Source: Trebouxia sp. TZW2008
Taxonomy: Eukaryota > Chlorophyta > Trebouxiophyceae > Trebouxiales > Trebouxiaceae
Direction of reading: 5' to 3'
Assembly: GCA_002118135.1 (NCBI GenBank)
Contig: BDIU01000051.1
Coordinates: 1 to 64,000, forward strand
DNA: 64,000 nucleotides
Shown here: one piece after another, positions 56,618 through 63,500 of the stretch
Position numbering within the stretch: position 1 is the first letter of the stretch
How the letters are laid out: each line of letters opens with the position of its first letter
Made by a program: the position numbers and the translations under genes
The notes under the pieces: generated by a model
The model's input: the letters and a program-made list of their open reading frames with translations, nothing else
The model's database searches: none
What the model was told of the DNA's origin: nothing

Positions 56618-59600
56618 TCACTCGAGAGTGCGCTGTCTGAAGTTCGCAAATTTGGTCTTGGTCCCATACTTATAGGAAATGCCTTTGCTTCCCAAAAACT
56701 TCTCAAGCTTAGCTTTGGTCGGCTCAGGGTCATCCTGCAGTAAGTAGAGATGTTGTGAAAAGATGCTTTTGCAAGAGACCTGTGCAGCCTCAGCAAATGA
56801 GCAATGGACAGCTCTACTGGCAGTGACTATGTCCAGCGTTCTTGCAGACAGGACAAAAGCTTGGCAGCTGGCTTGCAGTATAGCTATAGCCAAAGCCAGA
56901 CTGCCCATGCCTTGCTTACAATGTGATACAGCCAAAACAGAAATGACCACACCATTAGGCATCATAATAGGAGCGTATGTGAGAGAAAGCAGACTGGGAA
57001 TTAAAAAAAAGCAACCAGTCACAGAACCATAAAACAAACAACAAAACTGTCAAAACCTTTTCAACAAGAAAACTTGAAGACATTGATAATTATTGAGGGC
57101 TGTAATCTGTAAGAAGTGCAACATGGACCAAAGCCGGCTGTTCCACAGCAAGTAATAACGCTTGTTATGACACAGTCGCTTGGTGATATACATGCCTAGC
57201 AAGGCCATTGAGCCCAACTGGCGTGTATTTCTGTGTGTCTTATGTAGGTAGTATAACAGGTCCTAGATGTGTGTAACCCAAGACCTGTCTTGCCAGACCA
57301 GCTCCTGTTGTGTGGGCATAACAACAAGGGAGCATGCCATTCACTATGAAAGTAAGACTATGTTGCGACAGCAACTCACCGTTTTAATCTCAATCTCATA
57401 GCATGTGCCCCACTCTAAGCTCGTTTGTGTCATCATGATGAGGACGCATGACATGCAATCGCAGCATGGCAGATTAGACAATATTGTCACAGTAAGTCAC
57501 CGTTTCAATCTCAATCTCATAGCAGGTGCCCCACTCATAGGTTGTTTCATCTAGCTCCATCTTCAAGCCCTCATACTTGTAGTCCTGCCTCAGGTTTTTG
57601 AAGCCACCTAGGCAAATCAGATGCTTGGGCTTCAGCTCACTACAACACAACAGGATACACTGTAGAGCCATTGCTAGCAGGACCGACGTGCCTAGAGTAC
57701 TGTACCAAATGCATGTATCAAACAAATCCTGGCATGAGATACTCAGGCTACACATCCATGCACGTCGTTTGAGATTCTGAAGCTGAGCTTCACAAGAAGC
57801 AACTGCCATAATTTCAGTTTCAAGAGCAGACCCAGCTTGGTCATGAGTCAGAATCCACTATGAGCCAGGCCCAAAACTGTGTCACCCATGACATGTCATG
57901 TAAGCAGTATGATGCAATGTGACAATTGGAAGCTGATTGGTGCTGAAAATGCTTGCAATGCAATGCAGTGCCAAAATCTACACACATGCCGCTGCAATGC
58001 AGCGCTCAAATATGTGCATGTGCCACTGCAATCAGCAGCTTCACACGTGTCAATATGACTCAAGACATGGAGCTTTTCATCAGCAGTTTACTATGTGCAG
58101 GCTGAGCCAAACTGAGTGCACATCGCACTTGCAAGTGGACCCTTGATCTGTGCTTACTTCCTCACTCTTCCCAGGATGTCTGAGCCTTGCAGATTGAGCA
58201 GTGCGTCTGGATCCTTGAGCCACTTGCGAGCATCAGCTGGGCTGCAGTCCTCTTCTACTTCTGTGGCTGTGCCCACTCCGCCTATCATGCTTTGCCGACC
58301 CTGTTGTAGGCAATCCACAAATTAAATTTCAAATGCATTGTTGTTGATGACATTTTTGACTTTGATGGTGATTGGTTCTGACCGTTTGAAACAGTTGATG
58401 GTTTTGTATTTTGTTCAGATTTATCAGACAGAAGTTGTAAAAACTTCAATGCTATTGTGCATGTTTGTATACTGCCCCTGCTTGTGTGTTTGGAAAGTCA
58501 GACTGCATACTCATGCAAGCACGTAGTCTGACTTTGCAAGCTAGTTTGTGACAAACTGACTTGCACAGACAGGCTGCGCCAGGCATGGAACGTTGCAGTG
58601 CGGCCCAAGGCTATCTGTTTCAAGCACTGTCCTGGACATGAAATCTGGAAATGGGCTTATCTGCATGCAAGATCTGTCTGCTGTGCCACATTAGGCATTG
58701 CTGCCGTTGAAAGCATGAATACATATGATATTGATGTATGTTGCATTCCAAATGTCTTGTATGGTCATCATGCTTGGCATCTGACCAGGTGAGTCAAGGA
58801 TGCACGCACAGAAGCACCAGCCCAGTATCAGTGTTGGCTGGCCACAAGCACAGATGATGTCTATGGCTGACAGACACCCTGCGACTCTAGAAAGGCAGCC
58901 TGACGTTTGTGTAACACAATGTGTGCACCAACAGTCTCACGCCTAGCTGTTGAAGTTTGCTTGCTGGGCACACATGCATGCAGGAGAATGGTGACGATTG
59001 TAGGTCACAGAATCTGGTCAGCTTGCCCGTGTGCAGCCCCAGTCAAGCCTTGCCAGCTTGACAGATGATTTGAAAGCAGATCAGGGCTCAGTGACACTGA
59101 TGAATGTATCGCTGCTTGCAAGGCATGCTGCTGTTTGAAAGGCATGTGTTACCTTCATTGTGATAACACATTTCTTGTCTCCTCCATAGAACCTGGTGCG
59201 CAGGGAGACTTTAGCTTTGCTGAGCTCTTTCTCAGAACCCTCATAGAAGAAGTTCTCCTGGTCATGTGTTTCAATGTAGGAGTCCTTCAGTGCCTCTGCA
59301 ACTTTGTCATGTGCTGCCTTGTCTGGTAGCCGCAGCTTGATCTCGACCTGTACCAGGTAGAACAAGTGAGCAGACATTTGAGTGAGTCAAGGTTTCAGCT
59401 GCATCAGCATAGATTGGCGTTTGACTGCATGGTTTGGAGACAGCCTGTTGTTGTTGGCTGGGTCACAGAACCCCACTGCCAAGCACGCAGGTGATGATGA
59501 TGGTGATGATGTTGAATCAAGCAAAAGCCGTCCTCATTTACATGCTTGGCAGTCAGGTTGGCTGACCCTGGTAGCTGCATATCAAAGCAGTCAACGCCTT

Positions 59601-59927
59601 CAAATTGAGCAAACTTTTGCGCAGGAAATGAATCTGGCAATAAATGTGTACAATGCAGCATTGGCAAGCTCTCAAGACACCTCATCACTGTTTGCTTTAT
59701 TGTCTGCTGCTGACCCCATCAGCTTGAAACATGACTTTCTTTGCCTTGAGCAGGCCATGACTGGGCGTAGAAGACATGCTTTGTGCAAGACATGTGCAGG
59801 AAGGCCAAAATGCGCTGGAGCCCGCGAGCAAAGTGCCGCCATGCTACTGCAAGCCAAAGAAACAAGTCAAAGTCTGTTCCATGCAGCATGCAGTCTTGCA
59901 TAGTGTGGTAGCAGGGCTCACCTCCAT
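56618..59927 (-). CDS. TTM3: TTM3-type triphosphate tunnel metalloenzyme (CYTH)
   Basis: Five exons (59922-59927, 59153-59347, 58158-58300, 57501-57639, 56618-56734) join to 199 residues. The CYTH signature ExExK is residues 2-6 (MEVEIKLRLPD), split by the first intron after the second codon. Further family motifs are SLRTRFYGGDKKCVITMK, a VEED segment, ICLGGFKNLRQDYKYEGLK, LDETTYEWGTCYEIEIET and KYGTKTKFANF. Arabidopsis TTM3 hydrolyses tripolyphosphate in an acidic metal-binding tunnel. The start codon lies in the third exon of CDC26, one base after its stop. Both are probably translated from one mRNA, TTM3 by reinitiation or leaky scanning (inference). Intron 4 contains a copy of the exon 4 end. 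Confidence 0.93.
57376..57424 (-). repeat. Copy of TTM3 exon 4 3' edge
   Basis: On the minus strand it encodes EWGTCYEIEIKT-like sequence before a GTGAG-type donor, repeating the end of exon 4 (57501-57639). It lies ~115 bp downstream in intron 4. Confidence 0.85.
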
Positions 59928-59928
59928 G

Positions 59929-60265
59929 CTATCTTCGATAGCCGATCCTCGTAGCTACGGACTGCTTGGGAGGCTGCAAGACACAGGCACATGACAATTA
60001 GGCTTTGCGAGTCGCAAGACCTGTTGATGCAATGGTTCCAGCCCATCTCGCACCTGTTGCTGCTCAAACTTCCGTTGTTGTCCGCTGTCAGCCGCTTGTT
60101 TGGCTTGCGCTTCGGCTTGAGCCTTCTTGACGGTTTCGTACTGCAGTGCGCGCAGTGTGTCGAGGGTCCTGTATACAAGTTTTGCATGTGCTGTTGCAGC
60201 TTTTGCCGCCTTACCTCCTTGTCCTCCGGCTTGAGTTCGATCCTTGTAGGCTTTCTGAGCAGCAT
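59929..60265 (-). CDS. CDC26: CDC26, anaphase-promoting complex subunit
   Basis: Three exons (60215-60265, 60054-60140, 59929-59973), all phase 0, encode 60 residues. The N-terminus MLLRKPTRIELKPEDKE is the CDC26 (APC12) signature that stabilises the TPR subunit APC6/CDC16. A charged, Gln/Ala-rich helix follows (YETVKKAQAEAQAKQAA). The C-terminus RIGYRR keeps the RIG motif. The protein belongs to the cell-cycle ubiquitin ligase APC/C in the nucleus. Its stop TAG (59929-59931) is one base from the TTM3 ATG. An in-frame ATG upstream (60421, also 60448) would add 52 or 61 residues. I chose 60265 because the family starts there. Its short length and three small exons make it easy to miss in automatic annotation. 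Confidence 0.9.
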
Positions 60266-60546
60266 CAATTCGCAAAGAGGCGACGATGAGGAAATCGCAG
60301 CGATGACTCGCTGCAAATGTTGCGCTGCAAAGCTTCTTGCGGCGTCTCTCAAAGTCAATCGTCTTTCCGAAGTCCAATGCACTCGAATGCCCCCTCCTGT
60401 TTGACCAGCGTCGTAACTCATCGAGCTATGAATGACAATATGATACATATACGCGCATGACTAGAGCGTCATGAGCGACACCAGCGCCAGTTGGTCGTGA
60501 CGGGACATCAACAGACCGACGCAAAGCACAGCATCGAGGCACGAGC
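60266..60546. promoter_or_regulatory. Bidirectional promoter, CDC26-TTM3 / MnmG
   Basis: Only 281 bp separate the divergent start codons of CDC26 (minus) and the MnmG-like gene (plus). Both transcription starts probably lie here. The short space argues against a long CDC26 5' leader and against use of the distant upstream ATGs. It is rich in CG-containing words compared with the introns nearby. Confidence 0.55.
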
Positions 60547-63500
60547 ATGCTGCTCGCGGCCAGACAACTTGCGCTGCGGCATCAGACCCACGGCAGCGGC
60601 TTTCCGAGATCAATCTGCGGTCAGTCTCGCACAGCCCTTGCGCTGCGCGGCCTACAGACACGCGCGCGGGCGAGCAGCAGAGATGTAGACGTTGTGGTGG
60701 TTGGCGGTGGACACGCGGGTACTTGCCGTGCTCAATTTTCTATACTCGCCATTGTCACCATTGTCACCATCACCATGTCCAGCCTTCGAGGAATCAACAC
60801 GTTTGTGCCTTGACAGGATGCGAAGCTGCAGCAGCAGCTGCAAGGCGAGGTGCCAGCACTTTGCTGGTAACACCGCGCCCACAAGCAAGCATTGGTGAAA
60901 TGAGCTGCAACCCAAGCATAGGAGGGCTTGCCAAAGGAACGCTGGTCAGAGAAGTCGATGCACTGGATGGGCTCATGGTACAAGCACCAACCATTTGCAT
61001 GCAATCAAGTATCGCCAACCTTTGACATTCTTTGATGTAGCACATCATCTCATGCCTGATCAAGAGATATGTATAAAGCCCAGCAGCTACTATGCATGAT
61101 CAACAGATCATGTCTTTCCAGGTCGCGTAGCGCTTATCACGGCACAGATGTTGCAAAGTGACTTCTGGAAGTACATTTCCTGCTTTGCTGCAACAAAGCG
61201 ACAGATGCTGCTGTTCGCAAGGACTTAAGCAGGCACTTGTCAAATGCACAACACACTGCCTGCAACACGGTCGTGTACAGTAGACGGTATCAGTTGTCTT
61301 CTTACATAGTCTGTATAGCCCCGTGTTGGTGCCCTATTCTTGTGACCCACTGATTGATGAATGGAGTACAGTGCTGAACCCCCTTTTGATCTGTTGCTAC
61401 TGGTCTGCCAGGAAAGCTGCTGGGATCCAATTTCAGTTGCTCAATGCCTCAAGAGGTCCTGCAATGAGAGGCCCTAGGGCACACATGGACCGCCACCTGT
61501 ACAAGCACCACATGTGAAACTAGTTGTTTTCAGTGCCAGCTTTTCAGACATGCAAGTTTAACGCTTGATACTTGTTGTGATCTTGTGCTTTTTGTTTGCA
61601 GGGCAAAGTGGCAGATGCTGCTGTTATCCAATGAATGCCTCCAAGGGCCCTGCAGTCAGGGGGCCTAGGGCACACATGAATCGTCAGCTGTACAAGCACC
61701 ACATGCAAAGCCAATTAGCTTCAGTGCCAGCTTTTCAGACATGCAAGTTTAACACTTGATACTTGTTGTGATCTTGTGCTTTTTATTTGCAGGGCAAAGT
61801 GGCAGATGCTGCTGGTATCCAATTCCGCATGCTAAATGCCTCCAAGGGCCCTGCAGTCAGGGGCCCTAGGGCACAGATGGACCGTCAGCTGTACAAGCAT
61901 TACATGCAAAGACATCTGGCTGCTGTACCCAGATTGGAGATTGTTGACGATGCTGTCACCAACATCCTGCTGGAATCTGGAGTGGAGGGCGCAAGAGCAA
62001 CAGCTGGCGTCATGCTTGCATCAGGTGACTCAGCGCAAGTCTCACACTGATTTATCAGCGTCATCAACACCTCTGTCATCACCATCATTGATATGCTGTT
62101 TGGCAAGATTTCAGCTGACTGCCTCTATGTGTACCTAGTTGGGCCTGCTGAGCCTGCCTAGCCCACGTTTATAATGAGCGAATGAATGAAGATTTCAAGA
62201 CTTTGCAGCATTGCATGCAGCGCCACTTGGCTGCAGTGCCCAACTTACAGATTGTTGATGACGTTGTTACAATCATCCTGTTGGAATCTGGCAGGAACAG
62301 TACAAGATCAACAGCTGGAGTCATGCTTGCATGAAATGACTTCAGCACAAGCTCAAAATTGTCTTATTATGCTTGGAGACCGTTGATGACATTGTGACAA
62401 TCATCCTGCTGGAATCTGGCAGGAACAGCACATGATCAACAGCTGGTCTCATGCATGCATCAGGTAATGATGATGATAAGTTAGAACACCCAGCACAGGT
62501 GCTGGGTGTGCGTGACGCTAACACATTCGCACCAAGTCAATCAGTGCACATCTTGCTCTGTTTAGGTATTCAGCTCTGCAAAACTGCATCTCAAAGGGGT
62601 GCAACGGTACAAACTGGTGAAGCTTGACATCAAGGCATTGCAACATGCAGCTGCTCTGCATTCACACAGTGCAACCTAGCACAGCTGTCAGGGTCATTTG
62701 GTCTGAGTCGGCAGCGTGTTTCTGCATGCTGTGTCCACACTGTGAAATGATGCAGCCTTCTGCTTGTAGGTGAACACATCACATGCAAGAGCGTGGTGAT
62801 CACAACAGGCACGTTTCTGAGGGGAGTAATTCACATTGGCAGCAGGACTAAGGCTGCAGGCCGCATGCCAAGCTCAACCACTCAGGTACAGGATATCTTG
62901 GTCTCATCACTGGACACGATCCTTGGCCATGCTTCTTATGCCAAAATGGCTAAAACCACAAATAACAGGGCAGCCAGATTGCGGCGGTCAGATTCCGGAG
63001 GCTTTGTGCGAACAACAGAGATGTTCTTACATTGAGTGTCCTCCGAGCAAGAGTGTACTGCACATGTGCTGTGTTCTTCTGTTTGTTATCGTATGTCAGG
63101 AACTGGAGTCAAATAATCTTTCTCCATTGCCCAGAATGCAAAAGCCACAAGGCAAAAGATTCTTTTCCCATTTGACTGCAGGACAGGTCTGACAGGACAG
63201 CCGAAGCATCCACCTCTGCATCCTCCTCCTCAACTTCTTCATCAGACTCCTTCATGACAGATAAGGCAGATGCTGTGGCAGCCGCCGCAGCAGGGACCCT
63301 AGCACAAACCCTGGCAGATGCCGGTTTTGCCTTGGGCAGGCTCAAAACAGGCACTCCCCCCAGACTAGCTGCTGACACAATTGATTTTGGTCATCTGGAA
63401 CATCAGCCCGGTGACCAGAACCCCTTGCCATTTAGTTTCATGCACATGGGCAGCCCAGGCTGGCGGCCAGATTCCCGCCAGGTGTCATGCTATGGCACAA

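Follow-up and report, generated by a model that had tools for sequence, protein, structure and literature searches.

The minus strand of the analyzed window (a 64,000-nucleotide stretch of the Trebouxia sp. TZW2008 genome) carries CDC26 and TTM3 in such close order that the stop codon of the first and the start codon of the second are separated by a single base. The arrangement raises two questions: whether both proteins are made from the same mRNA and, if so, how ribosomes reach the start codon of TTM3. Our analysis points to a probable answer, namely, that this is a nuclear CDC26-TTM3 bicistronic gene with a single mRNA, on which TTM3 would be translated mainly through leaky scanning.

Structure of the CDC26-TTM3 locus

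A gene model was assembled on the basis of homology and splice signals. Its features are as follows.

60266..60546, no strand assigned: gap of 281 bases from the CDC26 start codon to the inferred start codon of an MnmG/GidA-like gene
60215..60265, minus strand: CDC26 exon 1 (ATG at 60265-60263; MLLRKPTRIELKPEDKE)
60054..60140, minus strand: CDC26 exon 2
59922..59973, minus strand: shared exon, with the CDC26 C terminus and TAG, the spacer C, and TTM3 ATG GAG
59348..59921, minus strand: 574-base intron after TTM3 codon 2, with an in-frame ATG at 59377-59375
59153..59347, minus strand: TTM3 exon, begins VEIKLRLP
58158..58300, minus strand: TTM3 exon
57501..57639, minus strand: TTM3 exon, ends YEIEIET
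56618..56734, minus strand: last TTM3 exon, with the stop codon TGA

CDC26 (60 amino acids) is encoded by segments 60265-60215, 60140-60054, and 59973-59929, which are separated by short introns of 74 and 80 bases, and it ends RIGYRR-TAG. At the place matching the first of these introns, the related sequences P0039, P0040, P0041, and P0043 read through the intron. The CDC26 stop codon (TAG, 59931-59929), the spacer C (59928), and the TTM3 start codon (ATG, 59927-59925) lie in the same exon of the minus strand; ORF 1 measures 183 nt, the inter-ORF distance is 1 nt, and ORF 2 measures 600 nt. The preliminary description of this DNA had placed the stop and start codons one base apart in an exon ending at 59922, and this was exact to the base. 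Codon 2 of TTM3 (GAG, 59924-59922) completes the shared exon and is followed directly by a GTGAGC donor at 59921. Four further exons lead to the TGA at 56618, giving a protein of 199 residues whose coding exons span 3.3 kb in the window. The model has six introns, each of the GT-AG type, and the TTM3 frame is open throughout when spliced.

Two kinds of fusion protein were considered. Readthrough of the CDC26 stop codon was ruled out as a source of a CDC26-TTM3 fusion because TTM3 is in a different frame. A +1 frameshift fusion is a possibility on paper, as the frame of TTM3 stays open for eight codons ahead of its ATG, and it found no support.

The neighboring gene upstream is divergent (plus strand, inferred ATG at 60547) and resembles the tRNA-modification gene MnmG/GidA. 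It matches Pfam PF01134 in two pieces, at 70 and 57 bits, and its first piece has no Pfam match. The intervening 281 bases probably hold the CDC26 promoter and leader. Provided that the transcription start site avoids the coding start of the divergent gene, the CDC26 leader is shorter than about 281 bases. The frame upstream of CDC26 (60266-60460, minus strand) is open and contains in-frame ATGs at -156, the nearest upstream ATG to CDC26, and at -183. On paper, an N-terminally extended CDC26 could begin at either of these codons, with no stop codon in between. We consider it unlikely, as two matching sequences (P0044 and P0045) differ from the window in the residues that precede MLLRK.

Toward the other end of the locus, we observed a 72-base direct repeat (57355-57426 and 57476-57547; 83% identical, starts 121 bases apart). 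Through it, the final part of a TTM3 exon, together with the donor site, is present a second time in the intron that comes next. By hand reading, splicing in this second copy from the AG directly preceding it would disrupt the frame.

Identity of the two proteins

Homology searches indicate that the CDC26 and TTM3 genes are both real and that their similarities are not chance matches. Spliced CDC26 scored 33.8 bits against Pfam PF10471 (cut-off, 24.5), with the domain at the N terminus, and the protein is predicted to be a subunit of the APC/C. Full-length alignment with a Trebouxia sp. C0010 protein shows 75% identity, its relatives (nine proteins) include sequences of Trebouxia sp. C0010 and C0004, and it aligns with human CDC26 (E value of 0.006). 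Spliced TTM3 scored 74.1 bits against the CYTH family (PF01928; cut-off, 23.2). The closest of its 36 protein relatives is 89% identical, followed by that of Trebouxia sp. C0009 (88% over the full length), and the structure of Arabidopsis TTM3 (5A5Y) matches it with an E value of 1.6e-33.

A search of the whole genome (68.5 Mb, 527 contigs) revealed one place for CDC26 and one for TTM3. When the genome was searched in six frames with the PF10471 profile there was no match, and 0 of 14 control genomes gave one; this does not mean absence and most likely reflects the division of CDC26 among three exons. No protein relatives of TTM3 were found in the scanned IMG/VR contigs or GTDB genomes. One relative, P0022 (labeled Phypoly_transcript), is 45% identical to this TTM3, starts MEVEVKIRLP, and falls near the plant-type enzymes. 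From its name, we take its source to be Physarum, outside the plant lineage.

The second codon of TTM3 and the intron that follows it

The ExExK motif characteristic of CYTH enzymes (PMC8233210, in part) reads EVEIK in this TTM3. Its first Glu is codon 2 and is therefore encoded in the last exon of CDC26. According to sections of PMC4641920, Glu2 of Arabidopsis TTM3 (AtTTM3) takes part in metal coordination, and mutating it strongly lowers activity. Because Glu2 lies in the CDC26 exon, a TTM3 started further downstream would be without a residue needed for activity.

Among the 36 TTM3 relatives, the motif was found in 29, and the preceding residue was Glu in 26 of these and Gln in 3. The Gln cases resemble intron ends. 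In P0015, IEVK is preceded by SPTFPPPFPQ, which resembles a polypyrimidine tract and CAG acceptor taken as coding sequence. P0029 and P0030 are Trebouxia-like exon frames whose residues are unlike each other, with Gln right before VEIK. Since all three look like intron ends, this analysis, read from proteins, suggests that the intron after TTM3 codon 2 is common to the relatives. The shared exon also offers a simple structural reason why automated annotation may put the start of TTM3 in the wrong place, of which P0015 seems to be an example.

These sequences bear on one alternative route to TTM3. A promoter within the intron, combined with an in-frame ATG situated 30 bases ahead of the second exon of TTM3, would yield a TTM3 beginning MSAHLFYLVQVEIK, in which Gln replaces Glu2. 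Both the ATG and an open frame are present, and in-frame Met codons also occur directly ahead of that exon in the exon frames of P0029 and P0030. However, the upstream residues are dissimilar among the window, P0029, and P0030, the three Gln cases (P0029, P0030, and P0015) are all explained by an intron end, and 26 of the 29 motif-bearing relatives have Glu before the motif. Moreover, the product should be nearly inactive given the strong loss of activity on mutation of Glu2 in AtTTM3 (PMC4641920, in part). We regard an intronic start as extremely improbable.

Transcription of CDC26 and TTM3

From the layout of the two genes, we infer that CDC26 and TTM3 are transcribed as one mRNA. Three Trebouxia-like TTM3 proteins that start MEVE (P0001, P0003, and P0004) are encoded on contigs of 976 to 1215 bases, compared with the 3.3 kb occupied by TTM3 here. 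Because of this difference in length, the contigs look like spliced transcripts, and they are best explained as transcripts in which the shared exon is joined to the rest of TTM3. Among the matches listed, the named transcripts were inspected for a second record of one transcript with both CDC26 and TTM3, and no pair was found.

According to the preliminary description, the locus leaves space neither for a promoter of TTM3 nor for a separate cap site from which the TTM3 ATG would be retained. This was overstated, as a cap site anywhere from 60264 to 59928 keeps the ATG. A separate capped TTM3 transcript could thus start inside CDC26 and use the same ATG as its first start codon. The sequence is compatible with this; the two start codons are separated by CDC26 exons and introns totaling about 337 bases. 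Its promoter, however, would overlap the CDC26 coding exons and their two introns (74 and 80 bases). A promoter scan of 1301 bases, of a bacterial kind and hence of little bearing on a eukaryotic gene, gave a single match, which was no better than chance and fell in the intron that comes next. Such a transcript appears very unlikely, and a single mRNA remains our preferred reading.

A single mRNA of this structure has a further predicted property. Relative to the CDC26 stop codon, exon junctions lie 7, 202, 345, and 484 bases downstream. Nonsense-mediated decay (NMD) follows a general 50-55 base rule. Three of the four junctions lie beyond 50 bases, and under this rule translation of CDC26 alone should make the mRNA a target of NMD.

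Start codon contexts

The start codon of CDC26 (gaattgATGC, with T at -3 and C at +4) is weak, and that of TTM3 (gatagcATGG, with A at -3 and G at +4) is strong. Reference start codons were collected from the same genome (n = 22: 16 of histone H3/H4, 3 of ubiquitin, and 3 of tubulin, with 9 internal polyubiquitin repeats excluded and EF1A not in the set). A purine occupies -3 in 20 of the 22, and the other 2 (L009 and L054) are as weak as that of CDC26 at both -3 and +4, in a set that is biased toward strong contexts because its genes are highly expressed and that is partly paralogous. One of the nine H4 places added no new context, and L007 has a stop codon inside the match.

In the course of this comparison, the nine histone H4 places (among L001-L018 and L020-L036) were found to be split in two pieces at about residues 57-67, which suggests a shared intron. 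H3 and H4 genes lie about 2-3 kb apart on five contigs of the genome.

Features of the two proteins themselves bear on the start contexts. P0044 and P0045, which are weak matches (E values of 3.4 and 7.1), are identical to CDC26 over MLLRKPTRIELKPEDKE. In both frames, the codon before the CDC26 ATG is for Leu, and -3 is therefore C or T there as well. Weighing against leaky scanning, Leu at position 2 is common to this CDC26 and human CDC26; with Leu in this position, CDC26 is without G at +4. At the second start codon, the favorable A at -3 of the TTM3 ATG is supplied by the CDC26 stop codon. With a gap of one base, it is the second base of the stop codon that falls at -3, and this base is always a purine.

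No ATG occurs between the CDC26 and TTM3 start codons. The probability of finding none was 0.23 by synonymous resampling, 0.51 by permutation of codons within the ORF, and 0.14 from base composition; for comparison, none of 137 overlapping 180-nt windows in TTM3 was free of ATG. With probabilities from 0.14 to 0.51, the absence of ATG from ORF 1 is not significant alone, and we rejected it as proof of leaky scanning. The absence of an internal Met from CDC26 was likewise rejected as a mark of bicistrony, because it is also absent in 54 of 114 further CDC26 matches (among the 120 best of 330), nearly all of them vertebrate and some partial.

Translation of TTM3

Experiments on another green alga, Auxenochlorella protothecoides, are informative in this regard. 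As described in sections of PMC11892635, ORF 2 output at two natural loci and one synthetic locus was inverse to the strength of the ORF 1 start, and green algal bicistrons have weak ORF 1 contexts and are depleted in AUG. Its authors favor leaky scanning, with some reinitiation not fully excluded. We prefer leaky scanning for CDC26-TTM3 because these mutations at other loci, as well as the start contexts here, fit it.

We propose the following sequence of events. One capped, spliced mRNA, probably starting in the 281-base gap, would carry both CDC26 and TTM3. Scanning ribosomes would meet the weak CDC26 ATG first, and some would initiate there to produce the APC/C subunit. The remaining ribosomes would bypass this codon and come next to the strong TTM3 start 184 bases further on, where TTM3 would be made. 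Reinitiation after CDC26 may contribute a minor share of TTM3. Both frames would then be translated, with leaky scanning as the main route to the second.

The preliminary description had instead assigned TTM3 to termination-reinitiation, in which ribosomes that complete CDC26 remain bound to the mRNA and initiate again at the ATG that follows after a single base. The one-base gap suits such a mechanism, and ORF 1 is only 60 codons long. There are also precedents: in the sections concerned, expression from synthetic Chlamydomonas bicistrons with a TAGCAT junction was ascribed by the authors to reinitiation (PMC5144980), and reinitiation across a single base, in UAAAAUG, occurs in a yeast strain obtained by selection (PMC11952965). 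If reinitiation were the main route, however, ORF 2 output in A. protothecoides should not behave as it does. A stronger ORF 1 start reduces it, as does restoring an AUG within ORF 1, both effects being the opposite of what reinitiation predicts (PMC11892635, in part). The in vivo tests on other Auxenochlorella bicistrons favor leaky scanning, and the contexts here agree. Reinitiation as the main mechanism is thus unlikely, and leaky scanning is retained as the principal route. With its one-base gap, the locus is well suited to distinguishing directly between leaky scanning and reinitiation.

The shared exon also provides a reason why the linkage of the two genes may be hard to break. It is possible, and we put this forward tentatively, that exon sharing locks CDC26 and TTM3 together through the ATG, Glu2, the recurring intron, and the -3 purine supplied by the stop codon. 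An active TTM3 could then not gain an independent downstream promoter, because Glu2 would be lost. If true, such a lock would help to explain the long-lasting linkage of CDC26 and TTM3.

Comparison with known systems

The CDC26-TTM3 bicistron is already known from Arabidopsis and green algae. The Arabidopsis bicistronic transcript was described by Lorenzo-Orts et al. (2019), as reported in other papers, and CDC26_TTM3 is named as a bicistron of Chlamydomonas reinhardtii and plants in sections of PMC11892635. According to these sections, plants and green algae have both conserved the bicistron, which supports the earlier proposal of an old linkage common to land plants. A CDC26-TTM3 bicistron in Trebouxia was not found in the open-license titles and abstracts surveyed, which is not proof of absence, and neither gene name is present in the one Trebouxia genome paper checked. 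These sections of PMC11892635 do not name the Trebouxia-like alga studied here.

The Arabidopsis gene encodes the same two proteins in the same order, with CDC26 upstream and TTM3 downstream. Transcript, translation, and NMD data have been reported for it, whereas the alga is known here from its genes. In Arabidopsis, the bicistronic mRNA is upregulated in NMD mutants, and translation of TTM3 supports CDC26 output (PMC11892635, in part, citing earlier work). At the protein level, the TTM3 described here belongs to the same CYTH family as the AtTTM3 tripolyphosphatase (PDB 5A5Y and 3V85), with the ExExK motif (EVEIK) and an acidic motif (YEIEIET), a likeness of sequence.

The green algal bicistrons of Duenas et al. 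(2025; PMC11892635, in part) likewise have a short ORF 1, a weak ORF 1 start and a stronger ORF 2 start, a short inter-ORF distance, and no AUG between the two starts. The inter-ORF distance here is 1 base, compared with medians of 183 nt in C. reinhardtii and 40 nt in A. protothecoides; at some loci of the latter, the stop and start codons overlap (preprint PMC11291117, in part). With this locus, a two-protein gene that is deeply conserved in eukaryotes is extended to a relative of the lichen alga Trebouxia.
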